Shown here: piece by piece, positions 10,046 through 32,029 of the stretch
How the letters are laid out: the number at the start of each line of letters is the position of its first letter
How positions within the stretch are numbered: the stretch's first letter is position 1
Assembly: GCA_016841675.1 (NCBI GenBank)
Contig: JAENYQ010000030.1
Location: 1 to 36,859, forward strand
Direction: 5' to 3'
Origin: Desulfotomaculum sp.
GTDB taxonomy: Bacteria; Bacillota; Desulfotomaculia; Desulfotomaculales; Desulfallaceae
Length of the DNA: 36,859 bases
Position numbers and translations under genes: made by a program
The notes under the pieces: model-generated
What the model saw: only the letters and a program-made list of their open reading frames with translations
Database searches by the model: none
Told to the model about the DNA's origin: nothing

Positions 10046-10882
10046 GTGCTGAAAGAGCTAATCACATTCAATTTATGGGGACAGCAGTGGGTGGTCAATT
10101 CTTATGGATTTTTCATGGGATTAGCAGCCATTGCTGTCCTTTCCCTTGGCTTATATAGTGCCCATAAAATGGGACTTCCCTTGCTGCGTAGCTTGATGTG
10201 CTTAATTGTGATGACCATTTCTGTTCCCGTGGGAGCAAGGGTATTGAATGTTGCTATCAATCCAACCGTTTACGCTCAAAACACTGGTCGTATCATGGCA
10301 TTTGAACCAACCGGTTTTTCTTTGCTAGGCGGTTTGCTTCTGGCTGCGTTGACAGGTCTGTTCACCACCCGATTATTGAAAATTTCTATGTGGCGTCTAG
10401 GAGATGCCGTTGCACCAGGGTTGGGGATCGCGCTAGCCTTGATGCGATTAGGCTGTTTTTTCAATGGATGCTGTTATGGATTGCCCAGCTCATTGCCCTG
10501 GGCTGTGCGCTTCCCCTATGGGAGTCCGGCACACAAGTATTATCTGGCGCACAATCATTCCATCGGCGGAGAATTTCAGCTGGGGCAACTTCTTGGTTCT
10601 CCCGCCCTTCATCCGACCCAACTATATGAAATGCTGGCGGCACTGATTGCCGCTGGTCTGACAGTATTTCTAATTAGAAAAAAGACTCCCGTTGGTGTAC
10701 CTTGCCTTGCAGCTGTAATACTCTTCACCCTGACTCGTCTGGGTAATCATTTCCTGCGGGTGCAACCACCAACCAATGAGGTTTCTTTATTTTTTTACCC
10801 GATTATTTACGTTTGTATTCTTTTGCTGGCAGCTATCCTTCTCAAATTAAGGGTTGAGACAGCAAAGCATAATCGGCAGTAA
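10046..10882 (+). CDS. lgt: Prolipoprotein diacylglyceryl transferase family protein
   Basis: The GTG start at 10046 has GAGGAG (10034-10039) 6 bp upstream, giving 278 residues with about seven membrane helices. Lgt-family features: NSYGFFMGLA near the N-terminus, LMRLGCFFNGCCYG (about residues 132-145) in place of the RxGNFxNGE motif, and HPTQLYE (189-195). Lgt transfers a diacylglyceryl group from phosphatidylglycerol to the lipobox cysteine of prelipoproteins. The Cys-rich variant of the signature is typical of secondary Lgt-like paralogues rather than housekeeping Lgt. It lies 22 bp after the large lipoprotein gene, so that lipoprotein is its obvious candidate client (inference). Confidence 0.85.
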   Translation: MLKELITFNLWGQQWVVNSYGFFMGLAAIAVLSLGLYSAHKMGLPLLRSLMCLIVMTISVPVGARVLNVAINPTVYAQNTGRIMAFEPTGFSLLGGLLLAALTGLFTTRLLKISMWRLGDAVAPGLGIALALMRLGCFFNGCCYGLPSSLPWAVRFPYGSPAHKYYLAHNHSIGGEFQLGQLLGSPALHPTQLYEMLAALIAAGLTVFLIRKKTPVGVPCLAAVILFTLTRLGNHFLRVQPPTNEVSLFFYPIIYVCILLLAAILLKLRVETAKHNRQ

Positions 10883-26292: not shown

Positions 26293-26326
26293 AAAACTCA
26301 TCACCAACATCATGGAGATTTTACAA

Positions 26327-26971
26327 TTGGAAATTCTACGCACCGAACATCTGTCTAAAATGTATGGCAAAGGCGAAACCGCGGTAAAGGCACTTGATGA
26401 TGTCTCTTTGGCCGTCAATAAAGGTGAATTTATTGCCATTATTGGTCCGTCCGGCTCGGGCAAATCAACGCTTCTGCACATGCTTGGCGGGGTGGACATA
26501 CCGACAGCGGGCCGAGTATTAGTCGATAACACAGACATTTATCAACTTGATGAAACCCAACTAGCCATCTTCAGACGCAGACAAATTGGCCTCATTTATC
26601 AATTTTACAACCTTATACCGGTCCTAACGGTTGAAGAGAATATTACGCTGCCCTTGTTGCTTGATCAACATCAGGTGAATAAGAAACAGTTTGCTGAAAT
26701 CATCAACATCTTGAATCTGCAAGACCGCTTAAACTATCTGCCCAATCAGCTTTCCGGCGGGCAACAGCAAAGGGTCTCCATCGGTAGAGCACTAATTAGT
26801 CACCCGGCCATTATGCTGGCAGACGAGCCAACCGGTAATTTGGATAGTAAGAATAGTAGTGAAATCATCGACTTATTAAAAATGTTTAATAAAACCTATC
26901 ATCAAACCCTAATCATTATTACCCATGATGAACGAATTGCCTTGCAAGCCGACTGTTACCGGTCACTTTAA
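26327..26971 (+). pseudogene. ABC exporter ATPase, 3' end cut off by a transposon
   Basis: TTG at 26327 is preferred over ATG at 26312, because TGGAG (26313-26317) then sits 9 bp upstream and the product starts MEILRTEHLSKMYGKGETAV like its family (BceA/LolD type). The frame is 214 residues. It contains Walker A GPSGSGKST (40-48), the Q-loop YQFYN, signature LSGGQQQR, Walker B MLADEP and the switch His H200. Genuine sequence ends at D209 (base 26953). The transposon then adds CYRSL and a stop. The missing 18 residues lie at 31973-32029. All catalytic motifs survive, so the truncated ATPase might still work. Confidence 0.9.
26949..26953 (+). repeat. Target-site duplication, left copy (CCGAC)
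   Basis: CCGAC immediately precedes the transposon's TG terminus and is repeated exactly after its CA terminus at 31968-31972. The bases one step further out differ, so the duplication is 5 bp. Confidence 0.92.
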
Positions 26972-27013
26972 TGTAGACTATCCGTTCAATTTTTCTCACA
27001 TTAAAATAGACTG
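26954..27013 (+). repeat. Left-end transposase-binding repeats L1 and L2
   Basis: L1 is TCACTTTAATGTAGACTA at 26963-26980 and L2 is TCACATTAAAATAGACTG at 26996-27013, 33 bp apart. They match each other at 14 of 18 positions and match the right-end motifs R1 and R2. Multiple short motifs per end are typical of TnsB/MuA/IstA-type transposase binding. Confidence 0.8.
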
Positions 27014-27031
27014 CAGCACCAATGTTAAGCA

Positions 27032-27070
27032 AAAATCCCTACCAAAATTTAAAATTTTGGTAGGGATTTT
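27032..27070. terminator. 39-bp perfect palindrome just inside the left end
   Basis: The 19-bp arm beginning AAAATCCCTACC (27032-27050) is the exact complement of the arm ending GGTAGGGATTTT (27052-27070), with a single central A. The GC-containing stem flanked by A and T tracts makes it a bidirectional terminator candidate that would block host transcription entering the element. Confidence 0.75.
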
Positions 27071-27114
27071 GTATCTGATGTAAAAATATAAGCAATTAAA
27101 AATAATCATGGGGT

Positions 27115-27169
27115 TGATTAGTCCTCTCTCCTTTTTAGACTTGGCGGTCAAAACAGAGAGGACTAATCA
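27115..27169. promoter_or_regulatory. Perfect 15-bp inverted repeat before the first transposon gene
   Basis: TGATTAGTCCTCTCT (27115-27129) and AGAGAGGACTAATCA (27155-27169) are exact complements around a 25-base loop. It lies 11 bp ahead of the ATG at 27180. It could be an operator, an attenuator hairpin, or a structure that limits translation, since the next gene lacks a normal ribosome binding site. Confidence 0.6.
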
Positions 27170-27179
27170 CTAAATAAAC

Positions 27180-27911
27180 ATGAAAATTATAACACTTTTT
27201 GCGCCGGCACGCAAAACCTGGACAGAAGCGAAATTTAAGAATACAAATATAGAAATCGGCCTTTGCCCTGCCTGTGCATCAATTAACACATTGCAATATT
27301 TATTTACCTGTAGTCAGTGGCGCTGGGACATTGAGATTCCCGAAAACTGGACATTCGGCGTATGGGACCAGGTAAAGTTACTACCTGTACGAGTACCACT
27401 ACCGGTATATTGCTGCACAGCATGTGCACTGCAAATAAAAATATTCCCCTCTTTTTGCCTGCGCGGTACCACATTAACCATACAAGCCCTGGCATTTATC
27501 GGCTTTGTGTACGAAACCACAGAACTTACCTGGCGTGATTTGCCCGAGATGCTATGTGACGCCAACAACAAAATAGCCCATAGCACCCTATACAAAGCCG
27601 TACATAGTGCAGGTAAACTCATGGCAACAGAGCAGGAAATACAAAAACTGCACTTAAAACACTTACCATCAAACAACCCAGATCAATCAAACCCGCCTTC
27701 ACTATGGCCCCCACCAAAATCCATATTCACATACACAGTTGCCCGGGAAAAAGGGATACGCATGTTTTTAACAAATCTACTGCCGGGTAAATTAATACGC
27801 TTAAACTTCCAGGCATACTTTTACCGCTATATCAACTTCCTAAACCGCATATTTGCTGCGTGGAATAAAGCCATAAACAATATCTATAGCAAGCTAAAAA
27901 CAAGCCCATAA
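27180..27911 (+). CDS. DUF6431-like zinc-ribbon protein of the transposon
   Basis: This 243-residue protein has a split zinc ribbon: C29-P-A-C32 near the N-terminus and C79-T-A-C82, followed by the aromatic/hydrophobic stretch LQIKIFPSFCLRG. This is the layout of the DUF6431 family often annotated beside such transposases. A helical segment (TELTWRDLPEMLCDANNKIA, then STLYKAVHSAG) is probably helix-turn-helix. The C-terminal 60 residues are basic and aromatic. A zinc-ribbon plus helix-turn-helix recalls TniQ/TnsD target-site proteins, so target selection is a reasonable guess, not a demonstration. No good ribosome binding site precedes the ATG; AGAGAGGA is 17 bp away inside the inverted repeat. 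Confidence 0.7.
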   Translation: MKIITLFAPARKTWTEAKFKNTNIEIGLCPACASINTLQYLFTCSQWRWDIEIPENWTFGVWDQVKLLPVRVPLPVYCCTACALQIKIFPSFCLRGTTLTIQALAFIGFVYETTELTWRDLPEMLCDANNKIAHSTLYKAVHSAGKLMATEQEIQKLHLKHLPSNNPDQSNPPSLWPPPKSIFTYTVAREKGIRMFLTNLLPGKLIRLNFQAYFYRYINFLNRIFAAWNKAINNIYSKLKTSP

Positions 27912-27966
27912 AACATATGTTCTTAAGGAATATCCCCATAATACAAAAGAAACACTTTACAGCCTA

Positions 27967-28046
27967 CCCTCCCTATTAAAATGGAACTAACCGGCAACAA
28001 AAACCACATGGCTAAAATCCGCCAAGATTTAGCCATCAAGGGAGGG
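27967..28046 (+). promoter_or_regulatory. Leader structure that could mask the parB-like ribosome binding site
   Basis: CCCTCCCT (27967-27974) is perfectly complementary to AGGGAGGG (28039-28046), which contains the ribosome binding site of the ParB-like gene. Inside, ATGGCTAAA pairs with TTTAGCCAT (28027-28035 side) as an inner stem. The nested arrangement would hide the start region unless opened. Confidence 0.45.
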
Positions 28047-28053
28047 AAAATGT

Positions 28054-28944
28054 ATGGAAAGTACACCCACTACCAACAAGGACAGCCCATCAGCCGGAGT
28101 CGTCTTAGCTTTGCCATGCCACAAACTAGTGGATAACCCCCTGCGCATGGAATATTACAACCAGACGCACCTGGCCGGGCTAACAGCTTCCATCAAAGAA
28201 AACGGTCTTTTAGAACCCATTTTAGTACACCCCCAAGAAGACGAGCAATACTACATCTTAAGCGGCCATTACCGTGTCCGAGCTGTGCGCAGGCTAAAGC
28301 AAAAACAAATATTATGCCGTGTCTGCCACTTTGACCAGCGCACCGCTATGGTCATCTACTGCACCCAAAGCCTTCTAACCAGGGCTCCCAGCGCCATAGA
28401 AGAAGCCTACATGATGGTAGCATTAATAAAAGCAGGCTTTAACATGAGCCAGGTAGGTGGGCTTTGGGGCCGCAGTAAATCCTGGGTTAGTCGCCGCATC
28501 AAACTATTAAATGCCCTGGATCCGCAAATAAAAGAAGAACTGGGTCAGGGAAATTTAAGGCCACGCCTGGCCCAGGAATTAGCCCGGTTGCCCCAGGGCA
28601 ACGAACAGGCCAGGGTGCTGGAGCTTATCCGCCAGTATCACTTAAACAAAGCAAATACCGCCCAATTAGTCGACTGGTGGCTTAGCGCCACGGAAACTGA
28701 GCGTTGCCGGTTGGAAGAGACAGGTGGATTCCCATTACCTGAATTCGGGGAAAAATTCGTGACCAGTCAATCACCCGGCGCATATATGGCTGCTTCCCTT
28801 AACCGCTGCACGCTAATTGTGGACGATCTGACAGTGTTTTTAGCCAAGCAAGCCAGACCCTTTAGCTGGTGGCCTAAAGATTCATACCGGTCCTTTCTGG
28901 CCGCAGTGGATACCCTTAGCGGGTTTTGCCCCCAAAAGAGGTAA
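28054..28944 (+). CDS. ParB/Spo0J-like protein of the transposon
   Basis: This 296-residue protein has a ParB N-terminal nuclease-like domain: LTASIKENGLLEPILVHPQE and the box ILSGHYRVRAVRRLKQ (residues 68-83), the counterpart of the GERRxRA motif. A ParB-type helix-turn-helix region follows (about 120-175), with GFNMSQVGGLWGRSKSWVSR and LRPRLAQELARLPQG. ParB N-domains bind CTP and DNA-clamp in chromosome segregation. No ParA is present, and the gene ends 4 bp before the transposase ATG, so it is more likely a DNA-binding partner of transposition. GGAGG at 28041-28045 is 8 bp from the ATG. Confidence 0.88.
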   Translation: MESTPTTNKDSPSAGVVLALPCHKLVDNPLRMEYYNQTHLAGLTASIKENGLLEPILVHPQEDEQYYILSGHYRVRAVRRLKQKQILCRVCHFDQRTAMVIYCTQSLLTRAPSAIEEAYMMVALIKAGFNMSQVGGLWGRSKSWVSRRIKLLNALDPQIKEELGQGNLRPRLAQELARLPQGNEQARVLELIRQYHLNKANTAQLVDWWLSATETERCRLEETGGFPLPEFGEKFVTSQSPGAYMAASLNRCTLIVDDLTVFLAKQARPFSWWPKDSYRSFLAAVDTLSGFCPQKR

Positions 28945-28948
28945 TATC

Positions 28949-30682
28949 ATGCGCCGACTTTATCACCAACGGCTGGAGAAAAAGGCATTTAAAATGGCGA
29001 TTGTATTAATGATCCGAGATTTACCGCCTCAAGAACGCTCTCGCCGGATAGATGAGCTAACTAAACAACAGTTCGATATTCCCTATTCCGGCAAAAAAAC
29101 ATTAAGCCGGGCGGTAATATACCGCTGGTTAAAACAATATGCCCAGTCTACTGACCCGGTAGGCATACTAATGCCTAAAGAGCGTTCGGACAGGAACAAA
29201 TTCAGAACCCTAACCGAGGGACAAAAGAACGCACTGCTGCGCTGGCGCTATGATAACGTCTATCGTACCGTCAGCCAATTGCGTGAAGAATTGCTGGCCC
29301 ATGCATCCACCGCCAAGTCGGTACCATCCGAATCTACCATTGCCAGGTTTTTAAGATCAGTTAACCTGGACAAGAAAACCCTTTTATCAAAAGATACTCC
29401 AGGGGCTAAAGTACGTCTGGCCTATGAGGCGCCCTACCCGCAATATCTCTGGCTTGCCGATACCAAAGGGCCAAACCTTTACGTATTGGATCCGGATGAC
29501 CCTGACAAGGTAAGGCTGGCCAAACTAATACTTTTCTTAGACGATCATTCCAGGTATGTGGTCGCAGCTAGCTACTTTTTTCAGGAAAATGAAATAACCG
29601 TGATGCTGCTATTTCGCCAGGCCATATCAATTTATGGCGTACCGAATAGTTTGTATGTAGATCGGGGTAGTCCCTACATGGGTAAATCCCTTAAAAGGGC
29701 GGCTACTATCCTGGGCTGTCACATAAAACACACTAAAAAAAGGGATGCCGCTGCGAAAGGAAAGGTTGAAAAAGGCCTACGCCTCTTTTATGAACACCTG
29801 GAAAGTGAACTGGCTTTGCATAAGCCACCCCTTACCATTGGCCAGGCCAATGAATATCTAGCAGCATTAATCGGCCAGGATTATCACCGCCGTATACACT
29901 CATCCACCGGCCAAACACCACAAGAAAGGTTTTTTGGCTTTCCCCAAGAGTACCGCCGGTTTGTATCTAAAAATGCGCTGGCTATGGTGTTCTTGCCTAG
30001 AGCCAGGTCCCGGGTTTCTAAAGTAGGGTTGATCCACATTAACAATCTGCAGTATCTGGTGCCCAGTGCAAGCCTGTATGACCGGTGGGTGGATGTACGC
30101 TACGACCCGCAGGAGCGCTCCCGGGTGCACTGCTGGCATGAAGATCAGTACTACGGTGAGGCGCATCTATTTTTGCCGGAAAACGATTATCTAAAGCGGC
30201 AGGAGTTAATGGAGAAATTGAAAGAGGTACCGGAAATCACTATACCGCCTGTGACCGAGGTACCGCTGTATAGCCATTTGGAACGCCAGCTCGCAGCCCA
30301 CCGTTTGGAGATTGAGGAAACAGATATAAATAATGCGCTGGCTTTAGTTAAGGCCAAGAAGGAACATGTCAAAGCTGCTTTGCTCAAGGTTTCCCAAACA
30401 GCTTTGGAAACTGCCGAAACTGCCGGTACTGCCGGACATATTGGCATTACTGATCATAGCAATGAGTTTGGTGTGGACAGTTTCACACATCTTTTAGCGG
30501 TGCTGTTAAAAAGAACCTTGGATGCCCATGACCGGTTGTCTATTCACACAGTCTGGCGGACTTATGGCCCTTTTAGTGAGGAGTTGGTAAGACAAACGGT
30601 AGGGCAGCTTTTAGGGGATGGGCATCCTGTCTCAAACCTGGCGGGCTATCTTGAGGCCATCAGGTTAGCTGTGTTGAAGTAA
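28949..30682 (+). CDS. DD35E transposase (Mu/TnsB/rve-type integrase core)
   Basis: This 577-residue protein has a helical/HTH N-terminus (residues 1-150; KKTLSRAVIYRWLKQYAQS, SESTIARFLRS), then an RNase-H-like core. The catalytic triad is D171 (LADTKG), D238 (LYVDRGSPYM) and E274 (KGKVEKGLR), with exactly 35 residues between the second Asp and the Glu. RRIHSSTGQTPQERFFGF is the usual post-core motif. A beta-barrel domain (about 345-400) and a Lys/Glu-rich tail follow, as in TnsB and MuA. It cuts and joins the transposon ends and should bind the 18-bp end motifs. It is translated from an ATG 4 bp after the parB-like stop. Confidence 0.94.
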   Translation: MRRLYHQRLEKKAFKMAIVLMIRDLPPQERSRRIDELTKQQFDIPYSGKKTLSRAVIYRWLKQYAQSTDPVGILMPKERSDRNKFRTLTEGQKNALLRWRYDNVYRTVSQLREELLAHASTAKSVPSESTIARFLRSVNLDKKTLLSKDTPGAKVRLAYEAPYPQYLWLADTKGPNLYVLDPDDPDKVRLAKLILFLDDHSRYVVAASYFFQENEITVMLLFRQAISIYGVPNSLYVDRGSPYMGKSLKRAATILGCHIKHTKKRDAAAKGKVEKGLRLFYEHLESELALHKPPLTIGQANEYLAALIGQDYHRRIHSSTGQTPQERFFGFPQEYRRFVSKNALAMVFLPRARSRVSKVGLIHINNLQYLVPSASLYDRWVDVRYDPQERSRVHCWHEDQYYGEAHLFLPENDYLKRQELMEKLKEVPEITIPPVTEVPLYSHLERQLAAHRLEIEETDINNALALVKAKKEHVKAALLKVSQTALETAETAGTAGHIGITDHSNEFGVDSFTHLLAVLLKRTLDAHDRLSIHTVWRTYGPFSEELVRQTVGQLLGDGHPVSNLAGYLEAIRLAVLK

Positions 30683-30716
30683 TTTATTCAAATAATGTGA
30701 AAGGATGGGGATAACA

Positions 30717-31565
30717 ATGTCTATGTCTAATGCTATTGATGAGTTAGTGACTAAAACTTTTCTGGAATACTGGGGGTTTAGGCAGCTTCCTTTCCCTAAA
30801 GTTGCCCAGCCGGATAACACTTTTACGGATAGCCGGATTGAAGATGCTTTAAAGCGGCTGATGCAGCTTCTTTCCAGCAGGGAAATCGGCGTGGTGGTAG
30901 GTGAGGCGGGTACGGGGAAAAGTACTTTACTTGATATTTTGTTAAACAGGGTATCCAATACCCGCTACCGGGTCATTCATCTGCCTATACCCCAGGCCAA
31001 GCCAAGGGAACTTTACCGGGCTATTGCCGCTGCTGTAGGGGTGAATACGTCCTGGTTTGGGGCTGATGCACTGAAGGTGGTGGACCTTTTGACTTATTCA
31101 TATTTAGAGTCGGGTCGCCCCAACCTGGTGTTGATTGATGAAGCGCATGTATTAACACCAGCTTGCTTAAATGAGTTACGTCTTTTAACCAACGCTACTG
31201 TAAAGCATGAGGCTGTTATCACCCTGGTACTTTTAGGCCAGCCGTCTTTGGCTTCAACTTTAAAGCTGCCAGCTATGATTCCGCTGGCCCAGAGGATTGG
31301 GGCCTGGGTTGCTCTGGGGGGGTTATCTGAGGATGAAGCGATGTTGTATCTGGACTGGCAGCTTAAAGCTGCCGGCAGACAAGCTGATATTTTCTCCCCA
31401 GGTGCCAAAATGGCTATTTTCCGCTGCTCTGGAGGTGTGCCGCGTATGATTAACCGGCTGGCTCTGGAGTGCTTAAATGAGGGTTGTTTGGAGGGTGCCA
31501 AGGTTATTACAGAGGAGCTCTTTGCTCATGTATGCAAAAATTTGGGCCCACATTTGACAAATTAA
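30717..31565 (+). CDS. ExeA/TnsC-like AAA ATPase of the transposon
   Basis: The ATG at 30717 has AAGGATGGGG at 30701-30710; an in-frame ATG at 30705 lies inside that site. The product is 282 residues. It opens with the ExeA-type EYWGFRQLPFPKVAQPDNTF. Walker A is GEAGTGKST (62-70), Walker B is LVLIDEAHVL (DEAH at 141-144), and the sensor region LVLLGQPSLASTLKLPAMIP and GGVPRMINRLALECL follow. ExeA-type ATPases in transposons act like TnsC, MuB or IstB: ATP-dependent filaments that choose the target and activate the transposase. It follows the transposase by 34 bp. Confidence 0.92.
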   Translation: MSMSNAIDELVTKTFLEYWGFRQLPFPKVAQPDNTFTDSRIEDALKRLMQLLSSREIGVVVGEAGTGKSTLLDILLNRVSNTRYRVIHLPIPQAKPRELYRAIAAAVGVNTSWFGADALKVVDLLTYSYLESGRPNLVLIDEAHVLTPACLNELRLLTNATVKHEAVITLVLLGQPSLASTLKLPAMIPLAQRIGAWVALGGLSEDEAMLYLDWQLKAAGRQADIFSPGAKMAIFRCSGGVPRMINRLALECLNEGCLEGAKVITEELFAHVCKNLGPHLTN

Positions 31566-31582
31566 TTTGTGGAGGAATAGGT

Positions 31583-31840
31583 ATGCGTTTTGAAAGAGGT
31601 TTGGAAGCTTATTTTAGCACGACCGGTTTCATTGATTTATTACCGCTGGCACTAAGTTTAGCCGATCAGGCAGGCTATGGGGAGGGTGAGATTATTGAGG
31701 CCATATGTAAAGTGGCTGATAAACACAGGGTATATCCACCCAGAATAAACAGAACAGCTTGGTTTGCCAGGGTTTTTCAAGAAAAGCTGGATGAGGCAAG
31801 GGCTGATATTCTAAGGAGAAATTATTTGCGGAATTCGTAG
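31583..31840 (+). CDS. Small transposon-encoded protein, function unknown
   Basis: The ATG at 31583 has GGAGG at 31571-31575 and gives 85 residues beginning MRFERGLEAYFSTTGFIDLL. It is basic and mostly helical, with GEIIEAICKVADKHRVYPP in the middle and a tail rich in Arg (RVFQEKLDEARADILRRNYL). No motif is recognised. It is the last gene of the transposon, 17 bp after the ATPase gene, so it is part of the same operon. A DNA-binding accessory or immunity factor is possible (inference). Confidence 0.75.
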   Translation: MRFERGLEAYFSTTGFIDLLPLALSLADQAGYGEGEIIEAICKVADKHRVYPPRINRTAWFARVFQEKLDEARADILRRNYLRNS

Positions 31841-31849
31841 TGTGTATTT

Positions 31850-31886
31850 AGCCAGTTACCTTTCTTCGGGGGAGCTGGCTTTTCTG
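31850..31886 (+). terminator. Terminator at the right side of the transposon
   Basis: AGCCAG (31850-31855) pairs with CTGGCT (31875-31880), with a partly paired interior, followed by TTTTCTGTTT. It lies 10 bp after the last transposon gene and would stop transcripts before they reach the ABC permease. Confidence 0.7.
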
Positions 31887-31916
31887 TTTATGGACTGACT
31901 GACGGACTGACTGAAT

Positions 31917-31967
31917 TAGTCTATTTTAATTTGATTGTTTTAGTCTATATTAAAGTGATTGCTAACA
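31917..31967 (-). repeat. Right-end transposase-binding repeats R2 and R1
   Basis: On the plus strand, TAGTCTATTTTAATTTGA (31917-31934) and TAGTCTATATTAAAGTGA (31941-31958) are R2 and R1, 24 bp apart. They are inverted relative to L1 and L2 of the left end. R1 with L1 differ at one of 18 positions. Confidence 0.82.
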
Positions 31968-31972
31968 CCGAC
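31968..31972 (+). repeat. Target-site duplication, right copy (CCGAC)
   Basis: Exact copy of 26949-26953, directly after the terminal CA of the transposon. Confidence 0.92.
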
Positions 31973-32029
31973 CGCGTGATTGCGATTGAAGATGGAAGAA
32001 TTGCCAAAGATGAGGTGATTCGCCCATGA
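31973..32029 (+). pseudogene. Displaced 3' end of the ABC exporter ATPase gene
   Basis: In the frame continuing from 26953 this reads RVIAIEDGRIAKDEVIRP and stops at TGA 32027-32029. Joined to D209 it gives LQADRVIAIEDGRIAKDEVI, the normal C-terminus of this ATPase family, for a 227-residue protein. The stop overlaps the permease ATG (ATGA), showing that the two genes were translationally coupled before the insertion. Confidence 0.93.

Follow-up and report, generated by a model that had tools for sequence, protein, structure and literature searches.

A ParB-family protein as a candidate accessory factor in two kinds of AAA+-dependent DDE transposon

A stretch of 36,859 nucleotides (nt) from a Desulfotomaculum sp. 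(contig JAENYQ010000030.1), referred to here as the window, carries a transposon in which a gene for a ParB-like protein lies beside those for a transposase and an ATPase. The five genes of the element (27180-31840) are arranged on one strand: first those of a zinc-ribbon protein and a ParB-like protein, then those of a DD35E transposase and an ExeA-type ATPase, and last a small conserved open reading frame (ORF). All five were found at the positions given in a first-pass annotation made from the sequence alone, and the DDE transposase and the ExeA-type ATPase were confirmed by Pfam domains and motifs. In agreement with the same annotation, Pfam and NCBIfam searches detected no TnsA or TniQ among the five ORFs, and neither these searches nor the ORF list gave a resolvase in 26954-31967.

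The complete element is 5,014 bp long, with the tips TGTTA...TAACA (table 1). Its 27-nt terminal inverted repeats, detected by repeat search, are 85% complementary, and a further inverted pair lies just inside them, indicating two related sites per end. The sequence CCGAC is present on both sides of the element as a 5-bp target duplication, and excision of the element together with one CCGAC gave an uninterrupted, in-frame ORF of 232 amino acids (aa) for an ABC-transporter ATPase. The inverted ends, the duplication and the restored ORF fix the limits of the element at 26954-31967 and show that it came in by transposition. The unit is therefore wider than the 27180-31840 delimited in the first-pass annotation, which had the five genes right and missed the ends, the target duplication and a second, IS21-based family whose accessory genes are of the same kind (see below). 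The window has right-end sequences in common with genomes G008, G007 and G004, and its left end in common with G057. The same genome also holds a partly deleted second copy (contig C152; 94-98% identical) and right-part remnants on contigs C20 and C4.

The first gene (ORF1) gave no Pfam match by itself, DUF6431 (PF20020) included. When its profile was compared with DUF6431 proteins of related elements, however, HHalign returned a probability of 95% (P 3.5e-8) with the cysteines aligned. The link to DUF6431 proposed earlier comes from profile-profile comparison and not from a direct Pfam match, while the description of this gene as a "split" zinc-ribbon/helix-turn-helix (HTH) protein was wrong, since 27180-27911 is a single intact ORF. 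A reading of ORF1 as a TniQ homolog was not supported: Pfam gave no such match, and a low-confidence model had no structural match.

The ParB-like gene lies immediately 5' of the transposase gene, with 4 nt between them. Its product matched Pfam ParB_N (1.6e-9) and HTH_ParB (3.5e-8), and the closest curated model was NCBIfam Noc (1.2e-22, below the cut-off of that model). The closest solved structures by sequence were Spo0J (1vz0) and Noc (7ol9). A predicted structure, built on an alignment of two sequences, likewise had its best structural matches among Noc, Spo0J and ParB (Noc 7ol9/7nfu and 1vz0), with Noc at the top. The HTH was the best predicted part (predicted local distance difference test score about 80-93), and the N-terminal domain was poorly modelled.

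Table 1. Features of the element and of its insertion site, in window positions.
Feature	Position	Strand	Evidence or remark
ABC transporter ATPase gene, 5' part	26312-26953	+	LolD/MacB-type; continues at 31973-32029; interrupted by the element
Target-site duplication CCGAC, left copy	26949-26953		Flank comparison
Complete element, 5014 bp	26954-31967	+	Terminal inverted repeats, target-site duplication, ORF restoration
Left terminal inverted repeat, TGTTACCGGTCACTTTAATGTAGACTA	26954-26980		Repeat search; left end of locus L040 similar
Left subterminal repeat, probably a further site for the transposase	26996-27012		94% complementary to 31918-31934
19+19 palindrome, terminator-like, just within left end	27032-27070		Repeat search
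Leader hairpin immediately 5' of first gene, loop AGACYTGRCRGTCA	27115-27169	+	Repeat search; z -5.1
ORF1, 243 aa, distant DUF6431 relative	27180-27911	+	CPxC...CxxC zinc ribbon and predicted helical part
ParB-like protein, 296 aa	28054-28944	+	ParB_N fold and HTH_ParB; CTP motifs largely replaced
DD35E transposase, 577 aa	28949-30682	+	Pfam rve and Mu-transpos_C; D171, D238, E274
ExeA/TnsC-like AAA+ ATPase, 286 aa	30705-31565	+	AAA_22 1.7e-21; TniB-like match; Walker A/B
ORF5, 85 aa	31583-31840	+	Strongly conserved
GACNGAC iterons 3' of ORF5	31893-31911		3 overlapping matches; 0.145 expected (mononucleotide shuffle)
Right subterminal repeat	31918-31934		Repeat search
Right terminal inverted repeat, ending ...GATTGCTAACA	31941-31967		Conserved in loci L039, L118 and L038
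Target-site duplication CCGAC, right copy	31968-31972		Flank comparison

Transposases of the same clade (about 58-77% identical over the aligned part) were found in G073, G004, G057 and G008, among 113 genomes of the order to which the window belongs. Transposase fragments were present in G039 and G013, and one more in G145, elsewhere in the phylum; 398 genomes drawn from the phylum gave no further member above 200 bits. A scan of genome contigs with poor peptide patterns recovered a single close relative, the contig of G073 itself. Scans of viral contigs with the transposase and the ParB-like protein gave no match, and tblastn searches of plasmids and phages with the latter gave only weak matches to partition-type proteins. 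G096 has, at the end of a contig, a more distant ParB-like protein (36%) in which the motif is likewise GHYR.

The ParB-like gene was present in 6/6 clade copies retaining the relevant region (the window, G000:C152, G007:C45, G004:C53, G057:C94 and G073:C9). The ratio of nonsynonymous to synonymous substitution (dN/dS) of this gene was 0.19 against G007 and 0.17 against C152, indicating purifying selection. These values are similar to those of ORF1 (0.24) and the transposase (0.25, against G008); those of the ATPase and ORF5 were 0.03-0.13 and 0.13-0.15. Retention in all six copies together with purifying selection argues that the ParB-like protein is a maintained component and not debris. The copy in G007 (locus L118) is a deletion derivative that keeps ORF1, most of the ParB-like gene and ORF5, whereas the region of the transposase and the ATPase is gone entirely.

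Outside the clade, relatives of the element are common. Their transposases are about 24-34% identical over the aligned part to that of the window and adjoin an ExeA ATPase gene. They are preceded by an ORF of 170-245 aa, which in 5/6 scanned cases reached, exceeded or came close to the Pfam cut-off for DUF6431. In the relatives examined there was no adjoining ParB of the kind found in the window. The transposase of G071 (31-34%), which is among the nearest of those not in the clade, lies on a contig that ends just before the gene, so that the upstream gene content is cut off. These elements resemble that of the window in gene order, in their transposase and ATPase families and, in one examined set, in TGT...ACA ends and a target duplication of 5-6 bp. 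They differ in having no ParB gene and in the C-terminal stretch of the transposase (residues about 505-577), which is present in clade members and did not align in the ParB-less relatives; this stretch is a possible contact site. As the ParB-less core is widespread, the ParB-like protein is an addition made in one clade. The first-pass annotation had held that homologs consistently lacking the ParB-like gene would refute its proposal; such absence was found outside the clade and not within it. Its further idea, that the ParB-like and DUF6431-like proteins stand in place of TnsA and TniQ, is not supported as a defining swap, because the DUF6431-like family transposes without ParB and the low-confidence model of ORF1 showed no likeness to TniQ.

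The trio of DUF6431 protein, DDE transposase and AAA ATPase is annotated by PGAP on the plasmids pGS18 of Geobacillus and pB218 of Metabacillus, and no name or publication was found for such elements. In the transposase tree (the row IstA_L199, in a wrong frame, is to be disregarded) the ParB-bearing clade was not resolved among the DUF6431 lineages, and Tn552, TniA, TnsB and MuA grouped apart from both with moderate support. Two ParB-type matches were set aside as unrelated to the nearby transposase. One, at L151, is a fusion of a DNA methyltransferase with a ParB-like domain, on the minus strand near a DUF6431-type element; the other, at L157, is on plasmid R751, far from TniA.

Among established systems, Tn552, Tn5053-Tn402 (TniA-TniB) and Tn7 (TnsABC-TnsD) also combine a TnsB/MuA-type DDE transposase with an AAA+ partner, and they share with the window element a short target duplication and TG...CA tips. 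Unlike them, the window element has no TniQ, TnsA or resolvase, and the Tn5053, Tn402 and Tn552 reference elements carry a recombinase gene. IS21 (IstA/IstB) likewise pairs a DDE transposase with an AAA+ helper, but the window transposase scored 28.1 bits against an IS21 cut-off of 160, and the window ATPase is ExeA-like and not IstB.

A search with the window ParB nevertheless led to IS21-family elements in at least eight genomes in which a ParB-like gene lies immediately before istA-istB, in most cases with a DUF6431-like gene before it. In G013 (locus L166) the order is a 202-aa DUF6431-like ORF, a 319-aa ParB-like protein, IstA (262 bits; IS21 cut-off 160), IstB (255 bits; cut-off 200) and an ORF5 that is 74% identical to that of the window. 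This unit spans TGGAAACGC to GCGAATCCA, with the tips TGGA...TCCA, and its flanks show the 6-bp duplication CCTGAT twice. The ends and the duplication indicate that the unit moved as one piece. The order of DUF6431-like gene, ParB-like gene, istA and istB is complete in G234. It recurs in G047, G027, G196, G236, G040 and G034, in part with interruptions or truncation at contig ends, and the last four of these show it only partially. At L197 (G196:C18) the istA gene is interrupted by three ORFs of 417, 629 and 349 aa, which look like tyrosine recombinases.

Every genome in which the IS21-type ORF1 was detected also contains the IS21-type ParB (6/6; E <= 1e-6). This ORF1 matched the DUF6431 profile with an HHalign probability of 85% (P 5.9e-6), and its connection to the window ORF1 runs only through that profile, since a direct comparison gave a probability of 3.7%. 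The IS21-type ParB had no plasmid match by tblastn. In an unrooted tree, each of the two sets of transposon ParBs formed one group, and both together stood opposite 20-22 chromosomal ParB/Noc proteins with a support of 98/97 (100/99 after removal of long branches). Given the long stems and the unrooted tree, a common origin of the transposon ParBs is likely rather than proven.

ORF5 matched no known family. Several ParB-less elements also carry it, at 60-68% identity, with transposases that are only about 26-30% identical. Taking all the regions examined (window 31583-31840, L166 10388-10639, L051, L138 and L201-L203), ORF5 is 60-81% conserved and occurs both with the ExeA-type core and with one core of IS21 type, which suggests a common module whose role is constrained. 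GACNGAC iterons lie 3' of ORF5 in most of these regions, that of the IS21-type element included, the exceptions being the near-identical loci L138 and L202; they may be a binding site. At L166 the ORF5 is followed (10640-10760) by a relic that is similar to the right end found in the window type of element, which suggests recombination between the two kinds of transposon.

The first-pass annotation described the window ParB as "CTPase-type" and proposed a ParB clamp. In Caulobacter ParB, mutation of R60, R103, R104, R139, N136, G79 or S74 abolishes or weakens binding of cytidine triphosphate (CTP) (PMC8367383). Mapping by alignment showed that only S74, G79 and R104 have kept equivalents in the window protein, so that the earlier description is doubtful; R60, R103 and R139 are lost, and the position of N136 holds Ser in the window and G007 and Asn in G004, G057 and G073. 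Canonical ParB/Noc CTPases share the ParB_N and HTH_ParB architecture with the window protein, but they have GERR where it has GHYR; Box III and P-motif 1 are not kept, and the window protein is encoded in a transposon operon. In ParB folds with CTP, ATP or GTP as ligand, GxxR serves as the minimal P motif, and a survey of the fold warns that nucleotide specificity is not reliably predictable from sequence (PMC12704722). This minimal motif is kept in the window clade (as GHYR) and lost in the IS21-type ParBs, which have GECE, GENE, GEKE or GDNK. The replacement of most CTP-contacting residues makes a CTP clamp doubtful in the window protein, and in the IS21-type proteins it is unlikely. The feature common to both types is the HTH.

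These residues bear on the proposal that the ParB-like protein is a nucleotide-switched sliding clamp, which would spread target immunity, drive target choice by sliding, or partition or resolve cointegrates. The ParB/Noc-like fold, the absence of a resolvase from the element and the GxxR kept as in non-canonical nucleotide-binding ParB folds would be in keeping with it, as would the difficulty of reading nucleotide specificity from sequence (PMC12704722). Because the CTP-binding residues are mostly replaced, the IS21-type proteins lack even GxxR and no ParA was found in the element, this proposal is considered improbable.

The explanation we prefer, with a confidence that falls a little short of even, treats the element as a DDE transposon of the DUF6431-transposase-ExeA type, AAA+-dependent and complete in itself, that has acquired a ParB-family DNA-binding protein as target or assembly adaptor. 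By analogy with TnsB/TnsC, MuA/MuB and IstA/IstB, the DD35E transposase would bind the paired sites at each end and carry out strand transfer, and the ATPase would assemble on target DNA and activate the transposase in the manner of TnsC, MuB and IstB. Through its HTH, the ParB-like protein would bind particular DNA, namely the target, the element ends or host nucleoid sites. With less confidence, it may act together with the zinc-ribbon protein to recruit or restrain the complex of ATPase and transposase. It would thus fill the role of TniQ/TnsD without being TniQ, and CTP-driven sliding, itself doubtful, would not be required. In favor of this explanation are the retention and purifying selection of the ParB-like gene in the clade, its place directly in front of the transposase gene, the corresponding gene pair before istA-istB, the separation of both transposon ParB groups from chromosomal ParB/Noc, and the HTH as the best modelled part of the protein.

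Several observations weigh against such an adaptor. The ParB-less relatives are mobile, three copies in one genome having target duplications of 5-6 bp in their flanks, which means that this chemistry can proceed without ParB. Only the window copy of the clade is complete, most of the others having decayed, and the grouping of the two transposon ParB families depends on long branches. No binding site for ParB was identified, and the insertion sites, about five, are too few to show a target preference or to test for a shared target motif.

The decay of most clade copies and the mobility of the ParB-less relatives would fit a ParB that is a passenger or remnant with no role in the element. Purifying selection and full retention in the clade speak against a passenger, and so does the second association, with a different transposase family and at the same operon position; this explanation, weakened by the second family, is regarded as very improbable.

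A role as adaptor has also to be weighed against one in gene expression. In both element types the first gene is directly preceded by stable hairpins (window 27115-27169, L038, L040, L166 6423-6455 and L167), with z values of -3.6 to -5.6. Their loops are kept (AGACYTGRCRGTCA among relatives of the window element; CTAGCAC) and their stems vary. At L040 another terminator-like hairpin occupies the position that matches the window palindrome. An Rfam search gave only a sub-threshold match (rli38, E 0.12). The leader hairpins and the terminator-like palindrome suggest strict expression control, whether the ParB-like protein is an adaptor or a regulator.

The main rival explanation is that the ParB-like protein controls transcription of the element, much as KorB and VirB do in their replicons, and is not directly involved in transposition. 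Regulators are known in the ParB family, structures of KorB were among the fold matches, and, besides the signs of expression control, the place of parB between ORF1 and the transposase gene fits autoregulation. However, parB does not stand first in the array behind a divergent promoter region of its own, no operator was identified, and in two transposon types ParB has a partner, ORF1, that is likewise a protein of DNA-binding type. A purely regulatory role therefore seems rather unlikely, though it is the strongest competitor to an adaptor.

The occurrence of a ParB-like gene at the same operon position in two unrelated transposon families suggests that a ParB-type DNA-binding protein may have been recruited to help transposition. 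A wider proposal, which we advance tentatively and regard as somewhat doubtful, is that the DUF6431-like zinc-ribbon protein and the ParB-family protein form an unrecognized accessory module, acting as target selector or assembly regulator of two cores, one TnsB/Tn552-like and the other IS21.

The first-pass annotation knew of no described system with this set of genes, and none was found in the open literature searched, where no description was met of ParB with TnsB/TnsC, ExeA, IstA/IstB or DUF6431 in a transposon (subscription papers and preprints lay outside this search). A survey of Tn7 target selectors states that none has been reported for IS21, and a paper on the structure of the IS21 AAA+ protein does not mention ParB or an accessory gene. 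The 2025 survey of ParB folds notes mobile elements, and its main text contains neither the word stem "transpos" nor IS21 (PMC12704722).

Its occurrence at one operon position in two families of AAA+/DDE transposons makes the ParB-family protein a concrete candidate for an adaptor of a new kind, and extends the settings of the ParB fold to transposons. If the proposed role is correct, it would be the first target selector proposed for IS21 and the first role in transposition for the ParB fold.

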